From a virus, in IMG/VR virus record IMGVR_UViG_3300032288_000938, positions 1 to 56,429 of that record: 56,429 nucleotides of DNA; one strand, written 5' to 3'. Below are positions 1-54,711 of the stretch, piece by piece. Within the stretch, counting starts at the first letter, position 1. Each line of letters starts with the position of its first letter. A model generated the notes under the pieces. That model saw only the letters and a program-made list of their open reading frames with translations. It did no database searches and was not told where the DNA came from. Position numbers and translations under genes: made by a program.

Positions 1-123
1 CTCCACAGTCTCTGCAACGTCTGCCGGGACAGTCTGGGGAGCCGGATTAACCCGGAAAGAAAGAAGGGGGGCCGAAGCCCCCCTCCGGTAGATTAGGCAG
101 CGCCGGGCGAACCGAAGATGCCA
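1..123. repeat. Terminal duplication, left copy
   Basis: These 123 bases recur exactly at 56307-56429. The copy holds the 3' end of the capsid gene, the terminator behind it and part of the following spacer. An identical overlap at both ends is what assembly of a circular or circularly permuted genome produces, giving a unit of about 56,306 bp. A true physical direct terminal repeat is possible but would normally be longer and would not end inside the capsid gene. Confidence 0.95.
65..84 (-). terminator. Terminator after the major capsid gene
   Basis: Read on the minus strand, an 8-bp perfect stem (AGGGGGGC/GCCCCCCT) closes on a TTCG tetraloop and is followed by TTCTTTCTTT. This is a textbook intrinsic terminator 9 bases behind the capsid stop codon. 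It would uncouple abundant capsid mRNA from the downstream genes that continue at 56283. The same sequence appears again at 56371-56390 in the duplicated end. Confidence 0.9.
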
Positions 124-1007
124 AGCGGGTCAGACACGCCGAAGCTATAACGCTCGCGAGCCTTATAGCGGACGTTGCCTGTGTCGAAGTCACCATCCAT
201 CGAGGTGGTCATCGGTGTACGCTCGAAGTGCTTCATGCCATTCGGAACGTCGGTGATGAGGAACCACGCATCGGTGTCGGTCAGATAGTGGTTGACCGAG
301 TAGCCTTCGGGGATCGTCCCGTTGGTCTTGATGGCGTTGATGTCGTTATCGGCAGTCGCCGTGCGGAGTTCAGTCTCCAGCAGGCGGGTAGCCACGAACA
401 TCAGGCTCGGCGGAACAATCAGCTTGCGGGGCTTAGCCGCAATCAAAAGACCGCGCTGATCCTTGAAGGCAGCGATCTGAATGACCGCAGCTTCGAGGGA
501 GGTTTCGTTCAGATCAGCAGCAGTGGAAGGTGTGTTGCTGTTGTAGCCACCACCAACCAGCGGATGCTGGGTGTTGAACAGGGTAACGCCGTCGCCGGAG
601 GTGAAAGCACCGCCAGAGAAGCCGTTGTTCAGCGGATAAGCCGCCTTGACCTGTTTCGTATAGGCCATACCACGGGCCAGAGCCTTGGTATAACGAGCCG
701 AAAGGCTGTCATACAGGTTGTCTTCCATCGCTTCTTCAGTGATGGAGAAACCCATAGCAATGGTTTCGTGGTTGTAACGAGCCGTCCAAGCTTCCTGCGC
801 ATTGTCATAGGCGATGGCAGAGCCTTCAGCCTTGACAGGAGCGGCAGCAAAGCCGGAAAGCTGGACTTCTTCTTCGAAAGAACGCTCAGAAGATTCCGTT
901 TCGTAAATTGCCTCATGCTCGTTTTCGTACTTCTTGTACTCAAGGCCAAACAGAGCGTTTAGGCCGGGGAGCAGTTCTTTGAGGAGTTGTGCGCGACTAA
1001 TAGCCAT
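93..1007 (-). CDS. Major capsid protein (Mu gpT-like)
   Basis: This 304-residue protein forms the icosahedral head shell. Length and composition fit an HK97-fold capsid subunit, and the N-terminal part (LLPGLNALFGLEY, then an acidic stretch, then MGFSITEEAMEDNLYDSL) resembles the Mu gpT-like major head subunit family. It lies at the end of the portal, GroES-like, scaffold-like, capsid gene series, the expected place for the shell protein, and an intrinsic terminator follows at once. The start ATG is 14 bases after the neighbouring stop. The exact capsid family is inferred from a visual match only. Confidence 0.8.
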   Translation of the reverse strand: MAISRAQLLKELLPGLNALFGLEYKKYENEHEAIYETESSERSFEEEVQLSGFAAAPVKAEGSAIAYDNAQEAWTARYNHETIAMGFSITEEAMEDNLYDSLSARYTKALARGMAYTKQVKAAYPLNNGFSGGAFTSGDGVTLFNTQHPLVGGGYNSNTPSTAADLNETSLEAAVIQIAAFKDQRGLLIAAKPRKLIVPPSLMFVATRLLETELRTATADNDINAIKTNGTIPEGYSVNHYLTDTDAWFLITDVPNGMKHFERTPMTTSMDGDFDTGNVRYKARERYSFGVSDPLGIFGSPGAA

Positions 1008-2195: not shown

Positions 2196-3125
2196 TTATT
2201 GACCTTTCATCTTTTCGGCGGCGTATTGCTCAACCGTCAGACCGAGACGCTTAGCGAGGGCGACCTCAGTAGCCGTCAGTTTTACCTGCTTGCGCGGCTT
2301 TGCAGCACTGCTGCGTGACGCCGGGGCCACAACATTGGATGTTTGCTGACGACTCTGCCGCTCTGAACGGCTATCATCGACAGGGTCATCAAACATCTCT
2401 GGGAAACGCTTTCGCATCTCCCCATCGAGTGTCTGCCAGTATTCCTCTGTGCGAGGGTCAATACGGTCAAACACAACAATCCGGTCATGGACATGCTTGG
2501 CATAATCAGTCATCAACTGGTCACGCCCGAACCAAGTGTTTTTCTTGGCCCAGTCCACTGCCTTTGGATCAGTCGGCGGACGAACAACAGGCTCATACTG
2601 AGGCTGCCGAACTTCTTCTTCCTGCCTGTAAACAGGACGGTAGTTAACCGCACTGACCTTCTGGACGGAAAGCTCAGCAATCCGCTCTTGGGCGGCTGCA
2701 ATAGCGTCGGCATCGCCGACATCATAAGCTTCCTTAAACTTCTTGCGAGCAAGCTCAAGATCAGACTCGACCCTGCTCTTCGCGTTCTCAACAAGGATTT
2801 CCTCGCCCTTTCGCAGGGCTTCTTCCATCCTCTTTTTCTCATCCATCAGCCTCTTTGCGAGGGCTGTGGCTTCGTTAAGCTGCCGGGCCGCTTCTTCCTT
2901 AGCGCGGCGTTCCTCATGGAACTCATACCGTAGCTTCTTGATACGCTTCTGGACGCCTTCGCTGTAGTTAGCGATTTCATCGTCGTTCGGGATTTCAGGC
3001 TCTTTCCCCTCCGGGCGGCGGGGTCGGCCTTTGTCCTCTTCAGGCGTATCATCGACAATCTCGATTTCAACTTCGTTGGAATCTTCCTTGTCTAACGCGA
3101 CTTCTTTTCCGTCTTCCAGTTCCAT
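2196..3125 (-). CDS. Probable capsid scaffolding protein
   Basis: This 309-residue protein is highly acidic in its first 60 residues, then predicted almost wholly helical, with a long coiled-coil region (KRIKKLRYEFHEERRAKEEAARQLNEA onward) and a basic C-terminal tail (KPRKQVKLTATEVALAKRLG). That layout, length and position between portal and capsid fit a scaffolding protein, which shapes the procapsid and binds the shell through a basic C-terminal helix. Its ATG overlaps the GroES-like stop codon (TAATG), implying translational coupling. The assignment rests on architecture, not on a recognised domain. Confidence 0.65.
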   Translation of the reverse strand: MELEDGKEVALDKEDSNEVEIEIVDDTPEEDKGRPRRPEGKEPEIPNDDEIANYSEGVQKRIKKLRYEFHEERRAKEEAARQLNEATALAKRLMDEKKRMEEALRKGEEILVENAKSRVESDLELARKKFKEAYDVGDADAIAAAQERIAELSVQKVSAVNYRPVYRQEEEVRQPQYEPVVRPPTDPKAVDWAKKNTWFGRDQLMTDYAKHVHDRIVVFDRIDPRTEEYWQTLDGEMRKRFPEMFDDPVDDSRSERQSRQQTSNVVAPASRSSAAKPRKQVKLTATEVALAKRLGLTVEQYAAEKMKGQ

Positions 3126-3583: not shown

Positions 3584-3775
3584 TTAGAGGTCATCGTCCT
3601 TCAAAAGTCTCTCTTCAAGATCAAGGATATGGCGCTCAGCCTGCGCCAAACCCTCAACTTTGCCCACCATGTGCCTATACATTGCGTAATCGCTGGCACC
3701 GCCAGTGGCCATAGAATCCGCCAAATCATTAAGATCTTCGCGGATTTTCTTGCGAATTAGTTCAAATTCCTTCAC
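3584..3775 (-). CDS. Small helical protein between portal and GroES-like gene
   Basis: A 63-residue protein, nearly all helix-forming and charged (MKEFELIRKKIREDLNDLAD, then ERHILDLEERLLKDDDL). Its ATG overlaps the portal stop codon, so it is translationally coupled to the portal. No domain is recognised. Small coiled proteins in this place can be portal or head accessory factors, but nothing here proves that. Confidence 0.65.
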   Translation of the reverse strand: MKEFELIRKKIREDLNDLADSMATGGASDYAMYRHMVGKVEGLAQAERHILDLEERLLKDDDL

Positions 3776-6180
3776 GAACCACCCATCAACTTGGTGCTGG
3801 CCTTAACGACCTCTGCTAACTGTTTCGCGTCAAGTTCCTTGTCCCGCACATCAACGTCTGCCATGATTTTTGCCCCGGCAATACGCTCTGCGGAATCCAG
3901 CTTTTCCTTGTCCAGCCGGAGCTTTTCAGCCGCGATCTGGGCGTCAACCATGTCCTTAGCAGCCTTGCGCTGCGACTCCTGAGCCTTGATCTGAAGCTCA
4001 GCCTGCTGCATCTGGATAAGCGGATCCTGAGCCTGAGCCTCGGCCTTCTGGGCCGCAGCCTTAGCCATGCCGTCCTGAAGAACCTTCTGGGCGGCAAGGG
4101 CTTCAACCTGAGCGAGAGTTTGCTCAACCTCTGGTGGGACCTCTTCTCCGGGTGCCGGTAGGGTGACGCCCATCTGCTGCTCAATCTTCTGGCGATACGC
4201 AAAGCCAATATGCTCAGCAATGTGGGATTGCATGGCACCCTGAATGGCACTGGCGAACTGGCTCTGCCCAACCATCTCCTGTATCCGTGGATCTTGGGCA
4301 AACGCCATATGGACTGCCAGATGTGCCTCGTGGTCTTGGTTTGCGAAGGCCATAACCTGATCCTGCTTAAGGATAGCCATGTTTTCAGACACGGGATCCA
4401 TAGGCTTGATTTCGTCCGGAAGCTTCACAATCTCATCGGCTCCCTTGATGCCCATGACTTCAAGGGCCTGCCGGTGGAGAAGCGGGGCGTTGTAAATCTG
4501 CGGGGCCTGCTGCGACATCTGGAGTGCAGCTTGGTACTGCATGAGCCGCTGAGACATGGTGGATGCGTTCGGATCAGAAACCGGGATCACATCAACGCGC
4601 TCGTCAAAATCCTCAAGACGGTTAAACTCGCCGCCGACATCATACTCGTATTCAGGACCCATGTAGTCCTTGATGATCTGAGCGATCAGCTTGAACTCTT
4701 GGTTCATGGCTGCGTGGACGCGAGCCTGCACAGCGGACATGACCTTGAGGTTGCGCTCCAGAAGGGCCAACGTCGTGCCAACGGGCGCGTTCGGGTTCAT
4801 ATCGCCAATGCTTACGTCGGCGATAGAGCCAATGCGGCGACCCTCTTCAGTCAGGGTGCCAAGGAGTTGGTAAAGAACCTGAGATGGCTCCTTATACGGT
4901 AGGAAGGTGATGCTGTCCTTAATGGCACCAGAAGCCACATCAACGTCACGGAACTCGCCCGGCATCAGAGGAGATGAATCACCCTTAATGCGCAGACCGC
5001 GAGCCTTCAGACCGGCGGGGAGGTTTGAGAGCGTACCAGCGTCGATAAGCTGCCGAAGAATAGATGTTGAGGATTTTGCAACCCCGCCAATCAAGTGAAT
5101 AAGCCCGGAGCCGTAGAAGCCAAGGCCCGGCAGATACGGGTAGTGGACAAAGTGCATACGCTTCTGGCGCAGTTCATCATCCTCGCGCCAGTTGCGGCGG
5201 ATGGCCAGAACTTTGCCAGACTGCTTTTCAATTGTGATTACATACGGAAGAGCGATGCCATCTTCGGACTCATAGCCCGGCAGATCGTAGTCAACGTGCA
5301 TCTCAAGGATCAGGTGACGGTCGTCCATATCCCAAGAGGGGTTGTCGCCATCAATCCGGTCGTACTTGTCCTGAATGCTGCTGCGCTCCGGGGTCGGCTC
5401 CGGCAAATCAATATCACGGTAAAAGCCAGACGCCATGAGCTTCTTGACTTCATTCGGATACTTACGCATCACATGAGTGTAGCGCGGGGCTGACTCAAGA
5501 TCAGAAGCGCCGTAAGGGACAATGAAGTCTTCTGCCGGTACGAAATCGGCGCGGGGAACCCGACGAACGGAGTCGTAATAAACCTTCTTGAATGCGGACC
5601 CAGCCAGAGGCTGACGGAACAGAAGCTGCTCCATTTCGGCGCGATAGCCGGGGATCTTCTGCATCACGATGTAGTTCATTTCCTCCCCAACGCGCTCAGC
5701 TTGCTTTGCGCGCTCTGGGGTCAGCTTCCCGATTACCTGTGTACGGACTGGACCTGATGCAGGCACCACTTCCATAATCGTTTGGGATTGATAACGGACG
5801 ACAGCTTCAGCGAGGATTGGGTGATAAACGCCAGAAGCGCCGGGCCACGGAATAGTCCGCTCCTCATACTTCATGCCGAGAAGGTCGAGACCTTCAATGT
5901 AGGATTTTTCCCAATCGCGACGAGATTCCTTATCTGAATTGTAGTCCCCGATCAGGTCGGACGCGATGCTGTCAAGCTCCCCTTCGTCCATAAACTCAGC
6001 AAGGTTAGCATTGAAGTCTTCTTCGTCGCCCTCAATTTCGTCGACCATTTCACCAGAAAAATCTACGACAACCCCGCCGTCCTCGGTCTCGGTTGTTTCA
6101 ATATCGGGGGGAAGCACAACTTCCATTGGCTCTTCCATCGGCAACCCGATTGGGTTTGTCAGCACTGGTTCAATAGCCAT
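3772..6180 (-). CDS. Portal protein (P22-like family)
   Basis: This 802-residue protein forms the ring at the head vertex through which DNA enters and leaves. After an acidic N-terminal arm comes a region typical of podoviral portals (WEKSYIEGLDLLGMKYEER, IPWPGASGVYHPILAEAVVRYQSQ), with GLGFYGSGLIHLIG in the stem and crown region. The C-terminal 200 residues are a long Ala/Gln-rich helical barrel (VLQDGMAKAAAQKAEAQAQD). The length is near that of the P22 portal (725). It follows terL by 8 bases. Confidence comes from both position and family-like segments. Confidence 0.88.
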   Translation of the reverse strand: MAIEPVLTNPIGLPMEEPMEVVLPPDIETTETEDGGVVVDFSGEMVDEIEGDEEDFNANLAEFMDEGELDSIASDLIGDYNSDKESRRDWEKSYIEGLDLLGMKYEERTIPWPGASGVYHPILAEAVVRYQSQTIMEVVPASGPVRTQVIGKLTPERAKQAERVGEEMNYIVMQKIPGYRAEMEQLLFRQPLAGSAFKKVYYDSVRRVPRADFVPAEDFIVPYGASDLESAPRYTHVMRKYPNEVKKLMASGFYRDIDLPEPTPERSSIQDKYDRIDGDNPSWDMDDRHLILEMHVDYDLPGYESEDGIALPYVITIEKQSGKVLAIRRNWREDDELRQKRMHFVHYPYLPGLGFYGSGLIHLIGGVAKSSTSILRQLIDAGTLSNLPAGLKARGLRIKGDSSPLMPGEFRDVDVASGAIKDSITFLPYKEPSQVLYQLLGTLTEEGRRIGSIADVSIGDMNPNAPVGTTLALLERNLKVMSAVQARVHAAMNQEFKLIAQIIKDYMGPEYEYDVGGEFNRLEDFDERVDVIPVSDPNASTMSQRLMQYQAALQMSQQAPQIYNAPLLHRQALEVMGIKGADEIVKLPDEIKPMDPVSENMAILKQDQVMAFANQDHEAHLAVHMAFAQDPRIQEMVGQSQFASAIQGAMQSHIAEHIGFAYRQKIEQQMGVTLPAPGEEVPPEVEQTLAQVEALAAQKVLQDGMAKAAAQKAEAQAQDPLIQMQQAELQIKAQESQRKAAKDMVDAQIAAEKLRLDKEKLDSAERIAGAKIMADVDVRDKELDAKQLAEVVKASTKLMGGS

Positions 6181-6188
6181 TTGATACC

Positions 6189-7688
6189 TCAGTAATACGG
6201 TTCATTAGTGGGGAGGCGAGGTGGCACAGGATCGTCCTCCTCATCTGTGTGGATTCTTACAAAGCCGCCTTGGCGGAAGCGCAGGATAGCCTGCGAAACC
6301 GAGTCAACGTAGTCATCATGCGATCCTGCCGGGAACGCGGCGCACTCTTCGATTACTTCTTCGGCCCATCTGGTGTCTGGCACCCATACACAGCCCGATG
6401 CAAAAAGATCCGTGATTGCGTTTACACGAGCAATCTTGTCTTGTCCCCGAGAAGGGGTGAAATCCGTAACCGGAATACCAGCCGCCCGCAGTTCGAAAAT
6501 TAGCGGGGAACCCGAGGCCTTCGCTTCGATTATAACCATATCCGGTGTCCATTGGCGATAATGGTCCATGGCCACCCTCTTCAGTTCCGGAAACTCCATC
6601 TTGTCCTTGAACGCATCCAGAAGGATAATGTTCGGTATCGGGGTCCCCGACTCGTCGTTGTAAAATACGCCCCATGTTGTGCAAGCTGAATAGTCGCTCC
6701 GTTCGGTTTTCTTAAAGGCCGTATCCCACGATACAAGAATTGATTCACAAGGCGGTGGGTGATCTCTGTCCCAGATACGCCACCACTCACGCTTCAGGAG
6801 AGCGCCTTCTTCCGAAGTCGGGTCCTGCTGATACTGAGCAGACCATTTACTAATCGGCAGTTCAGCCTTAAGCTTTTCAAGCTCAGCAAGCGACCAGAAC
6901 TCAGGCCAGAGCGGCTGCCCGGACGGCATGATGGCGGGGAACTCAATAACCTCCCACTCACCAGAGCCATCGCGCTTAATGGACGAATCAATGATCTGCC
7001 CTGTCAGGTCTCGCTTTGACCACCGGGTCATAACGATGATAATGGCCCCGCCCGGCTGGAGACGCTGGCGAGGACCAGAGGTGTACCACTCAAAAACCTT
7101 ATCATACACGCTTGGGTCGAACTGGCCAAGCATGGCTTCCTGTTCCGAGTGCGGGTCGTCGATGATGAGTAGATCAGCACCCTTACCCGTAACAGCGCCA
7201 CCAACACCGATGGCGAAGTATTCGCCCCGCTTGTTGGTAGACCAGCGGCCTGCGGCCTTGCTGTCTGATTGCAGACCTATACCAGAAAACACCTTCTGGT
7301 AGTCTTCAGATCCAACAAGGTTACGAACTTTACGGCCAAATCCAGTGGCCAACTCTGCCGTGTGTGCAGTCTGAATAACCTTCTTTTCGGGGAACTTTCC
7401 CAGAAACCAAGCGGGGAGAAGGTATGAGGCAAACTCTGATTTGGTATGGCGGGGTGCCATATTGATAATCAGGCGTTTGCACTTGCCGTCCGCAACCCGC
7501 TTAAATGCGTCCGCCATAATCTGATGATGCCTGCCGCCAATAAAACCGGGCCACATCATCTTTACGAACTTCATAAAATCATCGCGAGCAGCCTCGCGGT
7601 CTCTCGCCTCGTCAAGGCGGCGCAGTAATTCCAGAATCTCCGGCTTCTCAGAGTCGGGGATTTTTGAGATAATCTCTGCGTAATCCAT
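6189..7688 (-). CDS. terL: Terminase large subunit
   Basis: A 499-residue packaging motor with an N-terminal ATPase and C-terminal RNase H-like nuclease. The Walker A-like segment is NMAPRHTKSEFAS (about residues 75-87), the Walker B is LLIIDDPHSE (about 173-182), and the coupling motif region is IIVMTRW. The nuclease begins with SWDTAFKKTERSDYSA, whose Asp is the first metal ligand. No Shine-Dalgarno precedes the ATG. Instead an extended -10 (TGGTATCAT, 7695-7703) would place transcription start on the ATG itself. A strong terminator lies just upstream at 7725-7754. The small subunit gene is 7 kb away. Confidence 0.95.
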   Translation of the reverse strand: MDYAEIISKIPDSEKPEILELLRRLDEARDREAARDDFMKFVKMMWPGFIGGRHHQIMADAFKRVADGKCKRLIINMAPRHTKSEFASYLLPAWFLGKFPEKKVIQTAHTAELATGFGRKVRNLVGSEDYQKVFSGIGLQSDSKAAGRWSTNKRGEYFAIGVGGAVTGKGADLLIIDDPHSEQEAMLGQFDPSVYDKVFEWYTSGPRQRLQPGGAIIIVMTRWSKRDLTGQIIDSSIKRDGSGEWEVIEFPAIMPSGQPLWPEFWSLAELEKLKAELPISKWSAQYQQDPTSEEGALLKREWWRIWDRDHPPPCESILVSWDTAFKKTERSDYSACTTWGVFYNDESGTPIPNIILLDAFKDKMEFPELKRVAMDHYRQWTPDMVIIEAKASGSPLIFELRAAGIPVTDFTPSRGQDKIARVNAITDLFASGCVWVPDTRWAEEVIEECAAFPAGSHDDYVDSVSQAILRFRQGGFVRIHTDEEDDPVPPRLPTNEPYY

Positions 7689-31500: not shown

Positions 31501-34500
31501 TGCGTGGCCTTAAATGCAATGTAACTATCGCTACCTTTGTCCTCGTATTGGTTGCGGTATACGATCCCATCATAACCTTCGGACTTTGCCTGAGCTATAG
31601 CTTGATCCCATTCTCCATTTGCCCCACCAAGGTCTGCCATCCGTTTTGGGTTTTGCATTGACAAGTACGCAGATGTTACCGTCCCCAACTCAAGAGGGTC
31701 AGTATCGTCGTTGGCAATCATCTCTAATACATTTGAGCGGCCATGCGCGAGGGCTGTTTCTTGATCCTGAAATCCAACAAACCCAAGCTCTTCGGATGTG
31801 ACTCCGTCTGTATCAAAGTGCCAAAGCCCATCATCATTTTGATATGTTTCAACACCCATTGCGGCGTCATCGGCGCGCTTTCCAGTGGCGCGGTCAATCG
31901 CAGCTTGCCTTGTTCCAAAGTGCATTCCGCTCCTTGGAATATCTTCGTCCTCATTGAATGACCCAAAGTGATGAACAACGAGCGGCTTGCCCTGCTCATC
32001 AAGAACCTTGCTGCGTTTGAACCAGTTTTTGAACTCTTTTGTTTCCACAGCAGGAGCAATGGAGAACTTGCGGGCGGCGGCTTGTGGGGCGGTCACCACT
32101 ACAGATGTCTTGCCTACACCCGGCCCCTTTTCCACCGTGTAGCCATCCGGCACCAAAGATTTTACATAGTTGACAAGCTCTTGACCGTCATATCCTTTTT
32201 GATAGACGTATTTTTTCTCTTTCCGTTCAAAAACCCAATAAGCTTTCGGCTCTTTTGCTTTCTTAAAGTTCTTTGTGCGGTCAATGTCATCCTTGAATGC
32301 GCGAGAACCAATAATTGCGATCCCGCCCGGCGCAACCTTTTTAACGATGTCACGAACAACTTGATCGCGCAGTTCTGGCTCCAAAACATTTACAACATTC
32401 AAGCTAACGACGGCATCATACCTGTCCTTGATTTGGCTTGATTTTGTAAAGCTGGGTGGGATTTTACTCTCCCACTTCTTTGTATTGATTTCATAGGTGT
32501 CTACTGGGGCGGAGTTTTCTTCACGCATAGCGTCAGCGCCAAGTCCCAGACCGGCACCATAATCCAAAACATTCCTCGCCAGCGGAAGGTTTTCCTTGAT
32601 GTAATTTGCAGCTTTCCTGTACGACCCAATAGTTATCGCACGTTGCGTTGAATCAGAACCTTCTTGTCCCGGAATGTCACCTTCATCTTCCGGCAGCGCA
32701 GACAGTTTGCGAACCCCGCCCTCAACAGCGCGAGCTTCGCGAGCGCCAATCTTGCCAGCCTCAATATCCTTGAAGATCTGGCCAATCTTGGCGTCACGAT
32801 AGCCATTGAACAGGCGCTTGAAGAACTCGACAACGCGACCGAACACACCCTTCGGTGTACCTTCCAGCTTGAGCTTGCCAGCGCGGGCGTCACGGAACAT
32901 TTCCGCAACTGCCTCTTCGTGGATCATCTCCTCATTGAGAGAGCCGTCGGGGTTCTTGTAGCCTTCAACGGTGGCGTACATCCGAACCGCGCGGTCGTAA
33001 TAGGTAAATTGGTTGCCTTGGTATTTGGTCCGTTCGGCAGCCTTGAAGAGCGTGGACAGTTCCCCACCCTTGAACAAGCCAAGGTTGGACAGCGAGTGAA
33101 TGACCTCATGGTTCATCACATCAAACAGCTTGTCCACCATCTGGTCGGTGGTGAGGTTTGGATCATAGAGATTGTACGAAAGATATATTACATCTCCCGC
33201 TGGTGACGCCGCGCCCTCGGCGATACCCTTCCCCTGACGAACAACATCATCAAGTTGAATGCGAACATTCTTGCCCACGATGGGTGCAAGCCGGGCATTG
33301 AGGGCCTTTGATACGGCATCCTTCTTCGCCTCGAACTCTTGCAGTTTTTGGACGCCCTCTGGCGCAGTCACGACGGGCTTAAATAAAGCCTGTAGGGACG
33401 GCTTATATTCTTTGGGTGGCTTGGCTGCTGGTTGTTCTTGAACAGCCGCTGGCGGTGCCTCTGTGGGGCTTACAGGGGCTACTGCGGGGGTTGCCTGCGG
33501 CGCTGTCGGGGTTTCAACGGTGGCTGCCGGGGAGGGGAAAATGGACGCCATCGGCGGGCGCACCGGAATACCACCGGGGATGGCGGGCTGTTCGGCTTGG
33601 CTGATTGCAGGCTGTGTCTGGGGAGGAGGGATCTCGGCTGCCGTGGTGGATACCGGTGGAGGTGCCACGCCCTCGGGGGGCGGGGCCTCGACTGGCGCAA
33701 TGCGCTTCTTCTTCCCCTTCTTGGGGACAGCGGGTGTCGCAATCTCGGCGGCCTGTATCGGCGTCGCACCGACTTGCTGGATAGTTTCAGCAATGGCTGC
33801 CCCTGTGGTAGCTTGGCCAACCGGGGTTGTTGGCAATTGAGCCGGAGCGGGAGCCAAGGCACCAGCAGCCTTAAGCTCCTTGGCGATCTTCTTACCCTGC
33901 GCCTTTTCTTGTTTAGTTGTCTTGCCTTTGGTTGTGCGCGCAGCTTCTGCAATCGTCGGACGAACAAACGTCACAGTGCCGGGGCTGTCTTTTTCATACT
34001 GCTCGGCGGCTAAGAATGCGGCATCTTTTGTGCTGAATGTAGCGGCGGGCTTGCCGGTAGAGTCAACAATTTTGTAATTGAACCCCTTCTCGGTATTGTC
34101 TGCCAGCTTGATGCTAATTTCACCACTAGGCGCATTCTTAAGAAGTTCGTCACGACCAGCGATAGCTTCTGCCCGGATGCGTTCTGGTGTCTTTTCGGCA
34201 GCCTGCCGAGCGTTTTCCTTCTCAAGCTGAGTAAATGCAGTGCGCATTTTGCCAGCCTTGCGGCCAGCCATAAGCTGAAGGATAACGTCAAGCGTACCAC
34301 CAGCCGCACCGCCGACGCCTGCGTTTGAGAGGATGCCCTCTGTAATGTCAAGGTCGGGGTTATAGTAACCCTGCTCAACAAGATTCTGAGCGCCTTGCGC
34401 GATGGCTTCCTGCGCGCCTTCTTCTGTGGCAGAAACAAGCGCACGCTTGACGGCATTTTCCACAGTTTTTGCAACCCCGCCTGCTTTTGACACGGGGACG

Positions 34501-41915: not shown

Positions 41916-42275
41916 TTACGAAAGCTGCTTGAGCTTGTAGATGGTCTTTAGGTAAATTGCCGTAATTTCGTCAACGATATTTTCCAAAGCCGGTATTTCG
42001 CTTGCAATATGCTCGCGATGTTCATTAATCCAGTTTGCTTCGTCAGACAGGTGAGAGAGAATATCCTTCACTGGTTTGACTGCCGGAATCTCAAGTGGAT
42101 CAACTACTTTACCAGCGGCACCCATATACGCTTCAACAAGCTTGTCAATGCCGTCGATGATGTCATCATAAAATGCACCAAGGGCTTCATGCTCCGCGAA
42201 ACTTTTTGTACGCCAATGGGCAAGATGAGCGCAGTTGCGGGTGCAGAAAACCTTCTGGATAAGCTCGTTCAGCAT
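41916..42275 (-). CDS. Dps/ferritin-like small protein (DUF5856-like)
   Basis: A 119-residue helical protein, KVFCTRNCAHLAHWRTKSFA, EHEALGAFYDDIIDGIDKLV, EAYMGAAGKV, and a C-terminal helix pair. The HLAHWRTxSxxxHxALGxFYD pattern is the first helix pair of ferritin-like proteins such as Dps and of the phage DUF5856 family. It has many His and acidic ligands but no clear complete ferroxidase set. It is inserted between tail protein genes. Its role in infection is unknown. Confidence 0.65.
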   Translation of the reverse strand: MLNELIQKVFCTRNCAHLAHWRTKSFAEHEALGAFYDDIIDGIDKLVEAYMGAAGKVVDPLEIPAVKPVKDILSHLSDEANWINEHREHIASEIPALENIVDEITAIYLKTIYKLKQLS

Positions 42276-48403: not shown

Positions 48404-48580
48404 TCAGCCGTTCTTGGAGAAGGTCTTACCCTTTGTCGCGGCACCAAAACCACGCATGGTCTTGTCTTTCGCGATCTTGGGCATCAAGCCAGTATACACA
48501 CCCATGGACATGCCGCCTTGGATTGTGGCAACATTCTCTTCTTTCTGAGAACGGGTCTTCTTCTTCACATCGTTTGCCAT
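48404..48580 (-). CDS. Small basic protein, unknown function
   Basis: A 58-residue basic protein from ATG 48580 (MANDVKKKTRSQKEENVATI, QGGMSMGVYTGLMPKIAKDK). Its ATG is 1 base from the stop of the next gene and a ribosome site (GGTAAG) lies before it. A Gly-rich end (GFGAATKGKTFSKNG) follows. Unknown role; it is in a cluster of very basic small virion-region proteins. Confidence 0.6.
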   Translation of the reverse strand: MANDVKKKTRSQKEENVATIQGGMSMGVYTGLMPKIAKDKTMRGFGAATKGKTFSKNG

Positions 48581-48581
48581 G

Positions 48582-49121
48582 TTACTTACCCTTAACCTTG
48601 CCGCCAGACTTGAGGTTGGCAGCGGGGATGCGCTTGGCCGACTTGTGGGCAGCAACCTTCTCAAGGCGACCAGACCCAGACCCAGCACCAGCGGTCATCT
48701 TGACAGCACCGCCCTTGGCATACTTAGATACCTTGCCGCCATTTTTGCGGTACAAAGCAGGCATCCCGCCGATAGCTTCCATGGCCCCGCGAACACCTTG
48801 CGGAACTGTCTGGCTGCCGCCTTGTCCGCCCTTGCCGCTGCCGATAGACGGCTTAATTGGCATACCCGGACGGGTTGGGAACCCCGGAAGGGTCTTCACC
48901 ATGTCACGGCCATCACGGCGCATATCGCGGCGCATATCGCGGCGCATCCCGCGATCCATTTCAGCGGGGCCGCCCATAGCCATCTTTGGAACTTTGCCGC
49001 CGGGTGTGGCGTTAGAGCCAGTCCCCTTGCGAGCAATACCGCCGCCCTTGAGGGCCATACCAACGCCCTTGCGGGCCAAACCACCGCCACGCATGGCGGA
49101 CTTACCTGTCTTACCCTTCAT
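48582..49121 (-). CDS. Very basic Gly/Lys-rich protein
   Basis: A 179-residue low-complexity basic protein. The first 50 residues are Lys/Gly/Met-rich (MKGKTGKSAMRGGGLARKGV), then the tandem RRDMRRDMRRDGRD, and a Lys/Gly end (NLKSGGKVKGK). A MKSGGK-like piece near the end recalls the shared tag of the genes at 50516-52528, though the KTKGR part is missing. DNA binding or packaging with DNA is plausible but not shown. Confidence 0.6.
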   Translation of the reverse strand: MKGKTGKSAMRGGGLARKGVGMALKGGGIARKGTGSNATPGGKVPKMAMGGPAEMDRGMRRDMRRDMRRDGRDMVKTLPGFPTRPGMPIKPSIGSGKGGQGGSQTVPQGVRGAMEAIGGMPALYRKNGGKVSKYAKGGAVKMTAGAGSGSGRLEKVAAHKSAKRIPAANLKSGGKVKGK

Positions 49122-49131
49122 GGGGGACTCC

Positions 49132-49512
49132 TTAGATGTTCGGGTCGTACTGCCCGTTGTTGAGAACGATTACTGTACCGATCTGTCCCTGACAGAATAC
49201 AGCGTTATTTCCTACAATACCACCAACCGAGTTATTCTGCATAAGCGCGACAACATCTTGCCACCCAAACAAAGCCTCGCTGACAACCTTAGCGGTGTCT
49301 GGGCGGGGATCCCGCAAAGCCTGCGGATCGTTGACTGGGAACATGCCCAAGAACAACTGCGGATGGTCTTTATCAAGGCATTCATTGCAAACCTTTAGGT
49401 TTGTATTCCTGCCCTTGATTGGCTGGAAGTAAAGCTTAGCCAAGTCGGCCCTGAACCCGCAACGGTCGCAGAACCCGAATGCCCGCCTACCCTTGGCATA
49501 TGGGACACTCAT
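49132..49512 (-). CDS. Zinc-ribbon structural-cluster protein
   Basis: A 126-residue protein with a zinc ribbon near the start: FCDRCGFRADLAKLYFQP, then LKVCNECLDKDHPQLFLG. The rest is acidic and hydrophobic (VGGIVGNNAVFCQGQIGTVI). It overlaps the adaptor gene by 1 base, so it is expressed with head-tail genes. Similar zinc-ribbon proteins accompany adaptors in environmental podoviruses. Its exact place in the virion is unknown. Confidence 0.65.
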   Translation of the reverse strand: MSVPYAKGRRAFGFCDRCGFRADLAKLYFQPIKGRNTNLKVCNECLDKDHPQLFLGMFPVNDPQALRDPRPDTAKVVSEALFGWQDVVALMQNNSVGGIVGNNAVFCQGQIGTVIVLNNGQYDPNI

Positions 49513-50213
49513 TAGTAGCCCCCGAAGCCTACATACGGGAGGAAGCGATCTGGCGCGCGGTCTCGGTCTTCAGACGCTGCAAGCGTGAACTGCTCTTCGT
49601 ACAGGCCCTTTAGCAACTGAATGCGATCAGCCGCTTCGGGGTTTTTAAGCGCAATGTAATAAGCCAGACCGGAGACAAGGGCTGGCAGGAAGCGGACAGG
49701 GATGTCAGCGTTATTCGCTGCGCTGGCTCCGGTGTCCTCAATACGTCTCAGATACCAGTATACCAGCGTGTAGGTTGTGCTGCTATCTGGGACCGGCCAA
49801 ACCGTCACCGTCGGTGAGATCTGCCGATTGACGTAAATTTGGAGGGGCCTGCCCTGCGTGGACTTGGTCGGGATTGCGGCATAGTCGGAAACCGAAATGC
49901 GCTGCATCGTAATGTCGGTGTTTACACCAGAGTTGTTGGTGCGGATTACATGCTCGATCATGTCAATCATGTCCGCAGGAACCCCGTTGGCGACGGTATA
50001 TGTTGCTTGTCCGGGGACAAGGGTTATAGTGCCGGTTGCAATAGTCCAAAGGTTCAACCCCATGTTGGACCATTCGGCACACAGCAGATTGAGACTGCGG
50101 CGGGCAGTCTTCATGTCGTAGCCTGAGCGCAACTCAAGACCGGCGCGCTCAAAGGCTTCTTCGACAATCTCTGCGATGTCAAGGTTGAATGTAGCTGTGC
50201 CGCTGGTTGTCAT
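49512..50213 (-). CDS. Probable head-tail adaptor protein
   Basis: A 233-residue protein: FNLDIAEIVEEAFERAGLEL, RSGYDMKTARRSLNLLCAEW, SNMGLNLWTIATGTITLVPG, then YTLVYWYLRRIEDTG and a helical end. The N-terminal helices with EEAxERxGxE and RRSLNLLxxEWSNxGxNLW are the signature of P22 gp4-like adaptor proteins that join portal and tail. It is preceded by an extended -10 promoter at 50235-50243. Confidence 0.75.
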   Translation of the reverse strand: MTTSGTATFNLDIAEIVEEAFERAGLELRSGYDMKTARRSLNLLCAEWSNMGLNLWTIATGTITLVPGQATYTVANGVPADMIDMIEHVIRTNNSGVNTDITMQRISVSDYAAIPTKSTQGRPLQIYVNRQISPTVTVWPVPDSSTTYTLVYWYLRRIEDTGASAANNADIPVRFLPALVSGLAYYIALKNPEAADRIQLLKGLYEEQFTLAASEDRDRAPDRFLPYVGFGGY

Positions 50214-50372: not shown

Positions 50373-50516
50373 CTAGTACTTACCGCGATCACCCTTCATA
50401 GGGCTTTTGGGACCTAGGGACTTGCTATGGCGTCTTGCCTTTGGCAGGCTGCGACGCTTGCTGCGGGATTTTGATAGTTTAAGAGATGCCCCAATATTGA
50501 TCTTACTGGCAGCCAT
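50373..50516 (-). CDS. 47-residue very basic protein
   Basis: A short frame, MAASKINIGASLKLSKSRSK, RRSLPKARRHSKSLGPKSPM, KGDRGKY. It is dominated by Lys, Arg and Ser and has no hydrophobic core. Its ATG overlaps the stop of the preceding low-complexity gene. Such a peptide could bind DNA inside the head. No family is recognised. Confidence 0.5.
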   Translation of the reverse strand: MAASKINIGASLKLSKSRSKRRSLPKARRHSKSLGPKSPMKGDRGKY

Positions 50517-52006
50517 TAGACACACCGCCCCCTAGTCTTGCCGCGAGATGCAATGCCGTCTGCCTTGGCAACGCGGCCACCACTCTTCATTGTTTTGGGT
50601 TTAGCACCACGGCGTAGGTGCTTTTTCCCGCGCCTACGGATTGGCTCCTTATCTTCTCCACCGCCCGGCCTGTCCCTAAATGGCCCACCGGAAGAAGAAA
50701 AATTGGATTGTGAAGCACGATCACCGGCAGCAACAACACTTGGAGAAGTGGTTGGCTTCTGAGGCCCCGCAGGGCCACTATACACAGGACCTTCGGTCGG
50801 GCCAGACATGCCCGGCAGTCGGCTTTGATCCTTGTCTAAGAATTGACTTCCGAACTCAGGACCAACGGTTTCACCAGACATTCCCGGCAACCGGCTTTGG
50901 TCCTTGATAGAGCCAAAGGATCGGCTTGAATACGGGGAGGCAGGGTTAAATGAGCCAACCTTCGGGCCGAGGCTTGTCACCCCTGCCCCCTTGGGGACGC
51001 TTACGTTAAAATTGTACCCAGCAATTTTGGCTGGATAAGAGTTGTACGCAGACTCGTCAAAGCCGCTTGGGGTTGGGTATCTCAAGCCAGCGAGTCCACT
51101 CCCAATCAACACGCTGCCTTCAGGGAGTTGCTTGGCAAATTTAGCGGCTTGTTGAGCGGTCATTGGCTTCTGCGAACGCGCGAGCAGGCTTTGACCAATA
51201 TCGGTCTCCGCAAATGGGGTGAACTGCTTGCTCTGAGTGAAGGTAACGCTGCCCGGAACAACCGACTGTTGGTCAAGATAGCTAGGGCGGAATGAAGGAG
51301 CGGCAGGGCTTGCCTGCGTCGGAGTTGGAGAAAATGGCCTTGACGGCATAACCGCAGGCCGCTGCGGGGTTGGAGTCACAGGACGAGCAGGCATTGACCT
51401 ACGCGGCACCGGCTCGCCAGCCGGGGCCATGTAGGGATTTTCCCAATCAGGCGTCATTTCAAGCCGGTCTGCAATCTTGCCCTTCGGGGTAAGTGACTGG
51501 ATAGAAGTCCCCCTAATAGAAGGATCTCTCAAGTCTTGCTGCGCCAAGTCATTATAAACACCAGCCAGCATCTGAGCGCGGCCACTATTGATCCCAGCCC
51601 CCGTCATTGCGCGAGCGGGGTCAGAACCGAGCCGTGCCAATTGCCCAGCGGCAGATCCTCCGCTTGGACCAGACGGCCTCGTTCCACCAAACCCGCCTTC
51701 GCGAGTACTTCCTGCGAGGCCACGCGGTCCCTCACCGCCACCGCCCATCTGGCCTGAGCCACCGGGCCTCATGCCCCCGTCCCGCGTTGAACCGGCAAGA
51801 CCACCACCACCGGAGGAACCACCGGGCCTTGACCCCGCCCCTGCAAACCCACCTTCACGGGTAGAACCGCCTAGCCCGCTAGACGAACGCGCGCTCTCTG
51901 GCTGACCACCCATGAACCCGCCAAGGGACATCCTCTTGACGCCATCGGAGCGGGGGGTTGTTGCTCTCGTAAAACCCTTGCGGGCCTTTCCATCACCACG
52001 GGCCAT
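50516..52006 (-). CDS. Low-complexity Gly-rich protein with C-terminal tag
   Basis: A 496-residue protein without a clear globular domain in its first half, which repeats a unit like GLAGSTREGGFGG several times. The middle holds IGQSLLARSQKPMTAQQAAK and LPEGSVLIGSGLAGLRYPTP. A second repeat (DQSRLPGMSGETVGPEF) follows. The end is basic, then MKSGGRVAKADGIASRGKTR and GRCV, a tag shared with the next two genes. It may be a fibrous or internal virion part. No family name is given. Confidence 0.6.
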   Translation of the reverse strand: MARGDGKARKGFTRATTPRSDGVKRMSLGGFMGGQPESARSSSGLGGSTREGGFAGAGSRPGGSSGGGGLAGSTRDGGMRPGGSGQMGGGGEGPRGLAGSTREGGFGGTRPSGPSGGSAAGQLARLGSDPARAMTGAGINSGRAQMLAGVYNDLAQQDLRDPSIRGTSIQSLTPKGKIADRLEMTPDWENPYMAPAGEPVPRRSMPARPVTPTPQRPAVMPSRPFSPTPTQASPAAPSFRPSYLDQQSVVPGSVTFTQSKQFTPFAETDIGQSLLARSQKPMTAQQAAKFAKQLPEGSVLIGSGLAGLRYPTPSGFDESAYNSYPAKIAGYNFNVSVPKGAGVTSLGPKVGSFNPASPYSSRSFGSIKDQSRLPGMSGETVGPEFGSQFLDKDQSRLPGMSGPTEGPVYSGPAGPQKPTTSPSVVAAGDRASQSNFSSSGGPFRDRPGGGEDKEPIRRRGKKHLRRGAKPKTMKSGGRVAKADGIASRGKTRGRCV

Positions 52007-52016
52007 TGTGGCCTCC

Positions 52017-52247
52017 TTAACAGATTCTGCCTTTGGTTTTTACGCGAGAAAGACCATCGCCGCGCACTGCGCCGCCGCTCTTCATACGGGGCTGAAATTT
52101 TTGCATGATTGCGGGTGGGATATTCATACCAGCCTTCTCAAACTTACCAATCATCTTCCCAGCCCATTTACGTGCGCCGCCGTTACCGCTTGGCATACCT
52201 TTTGATTTTGCTAGGCCGCTTAAGTAACTAAATGGATTACCAGCCAT
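52017..52247 (-). CDS. Small basic protein with shared C-terminal tag
   Basis: A 76-residue basic protein (MAGNPFSYLSGLAKSKGMPS) with a helix in KWAGKMIGKFEKAGMNIPPA and the end RMKSGGAVRGDGLSRVKTKG, RIC. The last 20 or so residues match the ends of the proteins before and after it. The rest does not match, so the tag is a separate module. Function is unknown. Confidence 0.65.
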   Translation of the reverse strand: MAGNPFSYLSGLAKSKGMPSGNGGARKWAGKMIGKFEKAGMNIPPAIMQKFQPRMKSGGAVRGDGLSRVKTKGRIC

Positions 52248-52528
52248 TAGCAGATCCTTCCTTTAGTCTTACCGCGAACTGCGGCACCATCAACCTTACC
52301 GCCATGCTTAAAATCAGAAGGCTTAAAGCCTTCCAGCATAATTTCGTCGTTGGCATCGCCCTGACTGACTACACCGCTTTTTACGTCTTCCACCGTGATC
52401 TTGCGGCGCTTCGGCGCAGGCATCTTGGGGCGGGGCCTCGGGAGAGGCTGCTCCTTCTTCTTGGCATTCTCTTCCATAGCAGCAATCAAGGACTGCATAC
52501 CAAGCTTATCTTGTTCTGAAATGCCCAT
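52247..52528 (-). CDS. Small charged protein with shared C-terminal tag
   Basis: A 93-residue protein with a helical acidic start (MGISEQDKLGMQSLIAAMEE), a proline-basic hinge (PLPRPRPKMPAPKRRKITVE), then SDFKHGGKVDGAAVRGKTKG, RIC. The final segment is the tag of its neighbours. Its ATG and stop share bases with those of the adjoining genes, so the three are translated together. Role unknown. Confidence 0.65.
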   Translation of the reverse strand: MGISEQDKLGMQSLIAAMEENAKKKEQPLPRPRPKMPAPKRRKITVEDVKSGVVSQGDANDEIMLEGFKPSDFKHGGKVDGAAVRGKTKGRIC

Positions 52529-52713
52529 TACTTTTTCTTTCCTTTGCGCGCTTCGCTAAGAGCGATAGCGATTGCCTGTTTCGGGTTCTTCACAACCGGG
52601 CCTTTCTTGGACCCCGAGTGGAGCTTGCCCGACTTGAACTCCTTCATAACCTTTTTAACCTTACCGGGGGCCTTCAGAACTTGTTTAGTCATGCTGGGCC
52701 GAGAGATAGCCAT
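52528..52713 (-). CDS. Small conserved basic protein (DUF6496-like)
   Basis: A 61-residue protein: VMKEFKSGKLHSGSKKGPVV, KNPKQAIAIALSEARKGKKK. The VMxEFKxGxLxSGSxxGPxVxxxxQAIAIALSEA pattern is that of DUF6496, a common short phage protein (family label from memory). It is strongly basic. It overlaps the tagged gene by 1 base. Function is unknown. Confidence 0.75.
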   Translation of the reverse strand: MAISRPSMTKQVLKAPGKVKKVMKEFKSGKLHSGSKKGPVVKNPKQAIAIALSEARKGKKK

Positions 52714-54263: not shown

Positions 54264-54451
54264 CAGTCTTTATAACCTCCGCCAGCCTTTTTATACTGCG
54301 CAGCGAGCATCTGAGCCTTGCGGGCCGACCACTGGCCGGGTTTACCACCCTTGCCTCCAGCCTTCACACGCTCAAAGATAGCCTTGCGCATACCGGGCTT
54401 TGTGTAGTTACCGGCAGCATTTACTTTGCTCTTGGTTGGTTTCTTTGCCAT
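54263..54451 (-). CDS. Small basic protein (DUF5872-like)
   Basis: A 62-residue basic protein: MAKKPTKSKVNAAGNYTKPG, MRKAIFERVKAGGKGGKPGQ, WSARKAQMLAAQYKKAGGGY. The GKxGQWSARKAQ and KKAGGGY pieces fit DUF5872-type proteins (family label from memory). Its ATG overlaps the upstream stop codon by one base (TAATG). Unknown function, but the Lys/Gly composition hints at nucleic acid binding. Confidence 0.72.
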   Translation of the reverse strand: MAKKPTKSKVNAAGNYTKPGMRKAIFERVKAGGKGGKPGQWSARKAQMLAAQYKKAGGGYKD

Positions 54452-54711
54452 TAGCAGTTCCACGCCCTGAGAGACTTGTTGATGCGGCTGTTTGGATCGT
54501 TCGCCGTCTTGGAAGATGTGAGTTTCTTCTTCATTCCTGACATCCGCGCGCAGAACGACTTACGGCGTCCAGCGTCAGCCTTTGTCTTTGGCTTAGGTGC
54601 CGGGGGCTTCAGGTTCATGCCCTGAGCCTTCGCAGAGGCGCGTCCCTTAGCGTTTAAACCGCCTTTGGGGTTTTTGCCTTCCTTACGAGTCCATGCTGGG
54701 GAGCTTGCCAT
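54451..54711 (-). CDS. Small conserved protein (DUF6321-like)
   Basis: An 86-residue protein: AWTRKEGKNPKGGLNAKGRA, SAKAQGMNLKPPAPKPKTKA, DAGRRKSFCARMSGMKKKLT, then PNSRINKSLRAWNC. The AWxRKEGKxPxGGLNxKGRAS start, RRKSFCARMxGM core and RINKSLRxWNC end identify the DUF6321 family (label from memory), common in phage head-tail regions. Its two cysteines are conserved-looking. It overlaps the structural protein gene by one base. Confidence 0.8.
   Translation of the reverse strand: MASSPAWTRKEGKNPKGGLNAKGRASAKAQGMNLKPPAPKPKTKADAGRRKSFCARMSGMKKKLTSSKTANDPNSRINKSLRAWNC

Follow-up and report, generated by a model that had tools for sequence, protein, structure and literature searches.

The tagged proteins of the window

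How do three neighboring phage proteins that are otherwise unlike come to end in the same peptide, and what might that peptide do for them? The question was raised by an earlier note on the window, that is, the whole stretch of 56,429 nucleotides analyzed here (IMG/VR virus record IMGVR_UViG_3300032288_000938). The three tails quoted in that note agree exactly with the translations, and the shared C-terminal tag on the three adjacent proteins is real. All three genes lie on the minus strand. The first (50516..52006) encodes a protein of 496 aa with a Gly/Pro-rich body and no known domain, and its tag occupies 50519..50590 (MKSGGRVAKADGIASRGKTRGRCV). The second (52017..52247) encodes a 76-aa protein with the C-terminal end RMKSGGAVRGDGLSRVKTKGRIC and a short variant of the tag at 52020..52085 (MKSGGAVRGDGLSRVKTKGRIC), while the third (52247..52528) encodes a 93-aa protein with its tag at 52250..52312 (FKHGGKVDGAAVRGKTKGRIC). 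The last two genes overlap by one base (TAATG).

A profile HMM of the tag found precisely three significant matches in the window, one in each of these proteins, with E-values from 6e-8 (the iE of the 496-aa protein) to 2e-5. Likewise, the C-terminal core is present in 3 of 1577 stop-to-stop ORFs of the window, and 200 shuffles of each ORF end yielded 0 matches. A stretch resembling the core is also seen at the N-terminus of the 496-aa protein (51971-52006, minus strand; MARGDGKARKGF), where the match is non-significant (iE 6.4). In the closest four relatives (L304-L307), the 496-aa and 93-aa genes both recur with their tags kept, and homologues of the former carry the tag on bodies of 367-659 aa (as stop-to-stop ORFs). 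The 76-aa gene recurs in two of the four (L304 and L305), and the form of its tag, shorter by one residue (DGLSRVKTKGRIC), is common to those relatives.

A fourth protein, the Gly-rich 179-aa product of 48582..49121 (minus strand), had been read in the earlier note as carrying a partial tag. That reading has to be dropped, as its LKSGGKVKGK is the end of the protein's own C-terminus, which is conserved in the same four relatives as KMTAGAGSGSGRLEKVAAHK...SGGKVKGK and is distinct from the tag. In another phage (L312), a 51-aa protein homologous to the N-terminal portion of the 179-aa protein does end in a full tag core, ACGVAKRGKTKGKMV. The note had overlooked a small single-copy protein encoded at 48404..48580 (minus strand), whose end, TMRGFGAATKGKTFSKNG, is a member of the sister motif described below. 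Its relatives end in KTSGIKIRGTGAATKGxMARGPMA, and in the family alignment (A2) the N-terminus varies whereas the end, RGxGAATKG, is invariant, the last ~24 residues being far better conserved than the N-terminus. The gene is flanked by a zinc-ribbon-like protein on one side and a second adaptor-like protein on the other, and AlphaFold2 gave no confident fold for the 58-aa product (pLDDT 53).

Anatomy and placement of the tag

The peptide, here called tag 1, is a two-part sequence of ~21-29 residues, roughly 24 being typical, with the pattern ΦxxGGxV–linker–RADG[IC]AxRGKT[KR]GRΦΦ followed at once by the stop codon, and the consensus K(M)KKGGKV(SSASK)RADG[IC]AQRGKTKGRMV-stop. Its first part is a GG box of the form Met/Tyr/Phe (aromatic or Met)-xx-GG-x-V, which is joined by a variable linker of ~2-7 residues to a C-terminal core, (R)(A/G)DG(I/C)AxRGKT(K/R)GR plus two hydrophobic residues. 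The core positions G, K, T and G are near-invariant. The tag has a net charge of about +7, and the bodies to which it is attached are mostly basic in composition as well (median pI 9.4). By itself the peptide is probably disordered, and comparison with PHROGs, Pfam and solved PDB chains matched no family or chain.

A terminal cysteine had been considered part of the tag, which the larger sample contradicts. The 496-aa protein of the window itself ends in C-V rather than Cys, and in 221 C-terminal tags the final residue is V in 108, I in 41, C in 38 and L in 16. Cysteine is thus an incidental hydrophobic option (17%) that falls outside the definition of the tag, and a function for it was rejected.

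When DGxxxRGKTxGR was searched as a degenerate DNA pattern, at least 120 IMG/VR stretches were recovered, a figure that is a lower bound on the prevalence of tag 1, as compared with 4 for a one-base-short, frame-broken control pattern. Individual phages have 1-5 tagged genes. Among the matches listed, 177 were in frame, and nearly all of these stop exactly two residues past GR/GK. The tag HMM gave 355 matches in real ORFs versus 0 in shuffled ones, 228 of them finishing 0-1 residue before the stop. The core can nevertheless occur elsewhere, since a related core is found close to the N-terminus in a family of 65-70 aa, and in tagged DUF6496-type proteins 12-25 residues ahead of the C-terminal end; a free C-terminus is therefore not always required. 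In bacterial and archaeal genomes (257 billion bases) the pattern matched 59 times, with true tags on five contigs alone, all of them MAG-type records, and the remaining matches, whose distance to the stop is random, are chance. Because true tags in these genomes are limited to five metagenome-type contigs, tag 1 can be considered phage-specific. One 656-aa O-acetyltransferase ORF fused to the tag at the end of a MAG contig (L160:162-2132) was discarded as a probable chimeric assembly.

Genomic setting and phage lineage

The phage of the window is short-tailed and a relative of the SU10/Pam1/HTVC023P group, with which it shares homologous portal, TerL, capsid, adaptor and needle genes. Its major capsid protein (MCP; 93..1007, minus strand; phrog_371, E 2e-23) is 74% identical to that of Pag-Yong1 and 65-68% identical to those of HTVC023P and HTVC027P. 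The genes for TerL (6189-7688), the portal (3772-6180) and a scaffold-like protein (2196..3125, minus strand), whose N-terminus is strongly acidic and carries a conserved motif of the VDDTPE type, occur at the same end as MCP. The record is circularly permuted, so that the tagged block, bordered by MCP on one side and by a head-tail adaptor (Pfam SU10_adaptor; 49512..50213, minus strand) identified with the help of synteny on the other, spans the record ends. Past MCP the order is small proteins, holin, endolysin, DUF6496, the three tagged genes, adaptor, tail genes and ejection proteins. The DUF6496 protein (52528..52713, minus strand; Pfam E 3.5e-11) has no tag in the window. A DUF6321-type module (54451..54711, minus strand) ends ...SRINKSLRAWNC, and tag 1 follows it immediately in the relatives L021, L054, L058 and L091. 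In PHROGs, this type of module occurs at the ends of 336-928-aa proteins and is a second C-terminal module common to unlike proteins. In the tail gene region, a 119-aa protein (41916-42275, minus strand) matches phrog_858, annotated as a starvation-inducible transcriptional regulator.

When 67 MCP-adaptor intervals were retrieved from MCP or the adaptor without using the tag, 52 of them held 1-4 tagged ORFs, and wherever the genes were present, 11 larger contigs kept to a single order, TerL-portal-scaffold-...-MCP-[tagged genes]-adaptor. Moreover, among the matches listed, 117 of 120 tag-1 loci were accompanied by homologues of genes that are conserved in the window and belong mostly to the virion cluster. 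The suggestion that these are virion-region genes is borne out, in that the tagged genes sit in the head gene cluster and are confined to one phage lineage. The other 15 of the 67 intervals are tagless, and the lineage can therefore do without the tag. Tagged genes have also been gained or lost over short evolutionary distances. For example, two phages with an MCP ~90% identical to that of the window (L224 and L226) have an untagged 786- or 1117-aa protein where the 496-aa tagged gene stands, with the same kind of ~47-aa basic protein after it.

Cultured phages carry the tag as well. In the Planktothrix phage Pag-Yong1, a 308-aa protein (UMO75986.1) encoded between MCP and the adaptor ends YASGGMIGRDGCAKRGRTKGRFI (tag 1), and the protein is identical in MinM2 and Pra-JY27. 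A short-peptide tblastn of the tag against INPHARED returned no match, though both Pag-Yong1 and HTVC023P carry tags on direct reading; the miss was therefore probably due to the short query and low-complexity masking. The three cultured relatives scanned first (DSL-LC04, HTVC027P and CRP-901) yielded no tag. In the open-access papers searched, we found no mention of the tag peptides or of Pag-Yong1, no paper pairing HTVC023P with virion mass spectrometry, and no virion proteome of a tagged phage.

Modularity and selection

The bodies of the tagged proteins have little in common. The 323 tagged ORFs fall into 147 body clusters (205 clusters from 554 ORFs in a wider set), and when 108 tagged proteins are aligned, a consensus emerges over the tag only, which upholds the claim that the proteins are otherwise unlike. 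PADLOC detected no defense homologues among the 108 bodies. The tag behaves differently from the bodies, since identity of its core between orthologues stays at ~0.7-0.9 whether the body identity is 30% or >90%. Within one phage, tag codons for the same residue differ synonymously at 54% of sites, a value near the 63% expected for independent codons, and 0 of 119 within-phage tag pairs are near-identical. Because synonymous codons have drifted while the residues were kept, selection must act on the peptide. The earlier note had named recent duplication of a single gene as the result that would overturn its proposal; this was looked for, and the unrelated bodies together with the diverged synonymous sites of the tags led to its rejection.

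A sister tag and the exchange of bodies

Tagless phages, together with related ones, revealed a sister peptide, tag 2, which marks a related lineage and has the sequence GGxxRGxGAA[IT][KR]GTKFKGVF-stop, with at least 120 matches in IMG/VR. Of the tag-2 motifs among the matches listed, 97/126 end exactly four residues past F, and 117 of 120 loci, again among the matches listed, have homologues of the same set of conserved window genes as the tag-1 loci. Tag 2 is attached to 136 bodies in 38 clusters, and among cultured phages it terminates a 127-aa protein (32480-32863) of the Pelagibacter phage HTVC023P (SRGGGAAVRGMGFKGVF). One 393-aa protein with a sister-type C-terminal tag (L266:13715-14893) possesses a LysM domain and repeated MKKKGxxxGG units.

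Certain bodies occur with either peptide. A DUF6496 body bears whichever tag its phage uses, tag 1 or tag 2, or else none, as in the window, and an EF-hand/dockerin-like body is also found with both types. The EF-hand/dockerin-like motif itself (PDLTGDGKVTQKDILRGRGV) was seen in tagged proteins of L095, L437, L491 and L222 (2690-2956), and in untagged form in gp44 of HTVC027P. On the MCP tree the tag type changes 4 times, as compared with a shuffled mean of 21 and minimum of 17, and on the portal tree it changes 2 times versus a mean of 27 and minimum of 21. Tag type follows the capsid/portal lineage and not the body. Given the swaps on DUF6496 and the few changes on both trees, the tag is a property of the phage lineage, and bodies can be exchanged. 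Such concordance is as would be expected if a phage-encoded partner read the tag, and a co-inherited partner or shared ancestry alone would also produce it.

Possible functions of the tag

The analysis establishes that the tag exists and where it sits, that it is modular, conserved at the protein level, restricted to a lineage and exchanged on a common body, and that its genes lie in the head cluster. The earlier note's reading of a docking or sorting tag is supported in part. With the precedents of T4 internal proteins and encapsulin cargo loading in mind, we infer from the sequences that a portable C-terminal docking tag may load fast-evolving proteins into the head as internal cargo, a proposal to which we assign an even chance of being correct. 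The target of the tag would be a single conserved site on some phage-encoded part of the head under assembly, with the scaffold or the capsid's inner face as the most plausible choices. In this way the small, basic and fast-evolving products of several genes between MCP and adaptor would enter the virion, perhaps to be ejected into the host, and the sister tag would do the same job in the related lineage. As a lead only, the scaffold-like protein (2196-3125) is a candidate for the docking partner. Proteins of this kind have an acidic N-terminus (median charge -14 over 60 residues), and the VDDTPE motif, part of the conserved acidic linear motif EIEIVDDTPExDRGR, occurs in 56 of 70 tag-1 phages and 3 of 38 tag-2 phages; as 6 of 11 tagless phages have it too, the motif may reflect lineage only.

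The charge of the tag and the basic bodies would also suit a nucleic-acid-binding peptide, by which the small proteins would cover or compact DNA or RNA, either in the head or inside the infected cell, and have no need of a protein partner. We consider this unlikely, because generic charge leaves the near-invariant D, G, A and T positions unexplained, as well as the C-terminal placement and the lineage-wise exchange of whole tags on the same body.

Somewhat less probable is docking on the particle exterior or at the portal/adaptor vertex, where the proteins would serve for display or decoration rather than as cargo. The location of the genes between MCP and adaptor would be in keeping with this, as would the LysM domain of the sister-tagged protein, which is suited to peptidoglycan contact, but judged by composition the bodies look basic and poor in hydrophobic residues, unlike typical folded decoration-protein domains. 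Equally doubtful is a partner outside the virion, of phage or host origin, in lysis, takeover or an enzyme complex, with the head location due to co-transcription. The block of the window does include holin and endolysin genes; still, tagged genes stay in the MCP-adaptor interval even when the lysis genes are elsewhere, and tag type tracks the head-gene lineage.

A degradation signal, of the type of a ClpX C-motif, is very improbable. Tag 1 does have basic residues ahead of a hydrophobic C-terminus, loosely like the end of MuA, but its ~14 conserved positions, including the upstream GG box, go far beyond what a C-motif needs, and its internal Thr and Gly are near-invariant. Least credible of all are conserved DNA recombination sites or recent duplication, which might fit the fast turnover of bodies at a fixed locus but not the unconserved tag DNA described above, so that ancient gene-conversion tracts would be required.

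A broader picture could be drawn, one that is tentative and that we would sooner bet against than for: a large group of short-tailed phages, most of them uncultured, would have a general cargo-loading system, in which a conserved head component would recognize two lineage-specific C-terminal tags, and a fast-changing set of small proteins, possibly factors for anti-defense or takeover, would thereby be loaded and delivered along with the DNA. Unknown payload proteins could then be found from the tag sequence alone, where alignment of the bodies fails, and if the tag targets the virion, hundreds of unannotated and unrelated proteins of a widespread aquatic phage lineage would become one predictable class, head cargo. 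The cultured isolates available for each tag (Pag-Yong1 and HTVC023P) make the hypothesis testable.

Comparison with known systems

The families nearest at hand are Pfam DUF6496 and DUF6321 (phrog_4689, 727 and 3477), small-protein families of the same gene block with tagged relatives. They are bodies or modules, however, and not the tag itself, DUF6321 being a C-terminal module of unlike proteins.

Among targeting sequences, a C-terminal propeptide of the SPN3US prohead protease has been proposed to target that protein into the prohead (PMC7411985). It resembles the tag in being a C-terminal region proposed for prohead targeting, but it is 64 residues long, belongs to one protein and is autocleaved, whereas the tag is common to many proteins.

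Encapsulin cargo-loading peptides are C-terminal and bind the luminal face of an HK97-fold shell (PMC7355545). Like the tag they are short and usually C-terminal, and the cargo gene adjoins the gene of the HK97-fold shell much as the tagged genes adjoin that of MCP, for which the AlphaFold2 model reached a pLDDT of 34 and a PDB search, like that for the adaptor, showed no relative. They differ in being ~10 residues in length and in serving enzyme cargo in cellular compartments rather than a phage, and no sequence similarity was noted.

The internal proteins of T4 are a highly diverse basic set, conserved only in their targeting sequence (PMC3012670, PMC9026906). The likeness to the tagged proteins is considerable, in that one short conserved peptide, the CTS, is found on several small, basic and divergent proteins (IPI, IPII, IPIII and Alt) whose bodies vary among relatives, and the tag too is a short peptide common to unlike proteins of one phage. 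The CTS, however, is N-terminal, 10-19 residues long, of other sequence and removed by the gp21 protease, whereas the tag is C-terminal, is ~21-29 residues long, is not known to be cleaved and belongs to short-tailed phages. Because the N-terminal position is not shared, membership of the T4 CTS class is not claimed, and since the window genes yielded no prohead protease encoded separately from the capsid, removal of the tag in T4 style is not supported. The tag is homologous to neither the T4 CTS nor the encapsulin peptides. If it does load the head, it would be a C-terminal, non-T4 answer to the problem that the T4 internal proteins solve.
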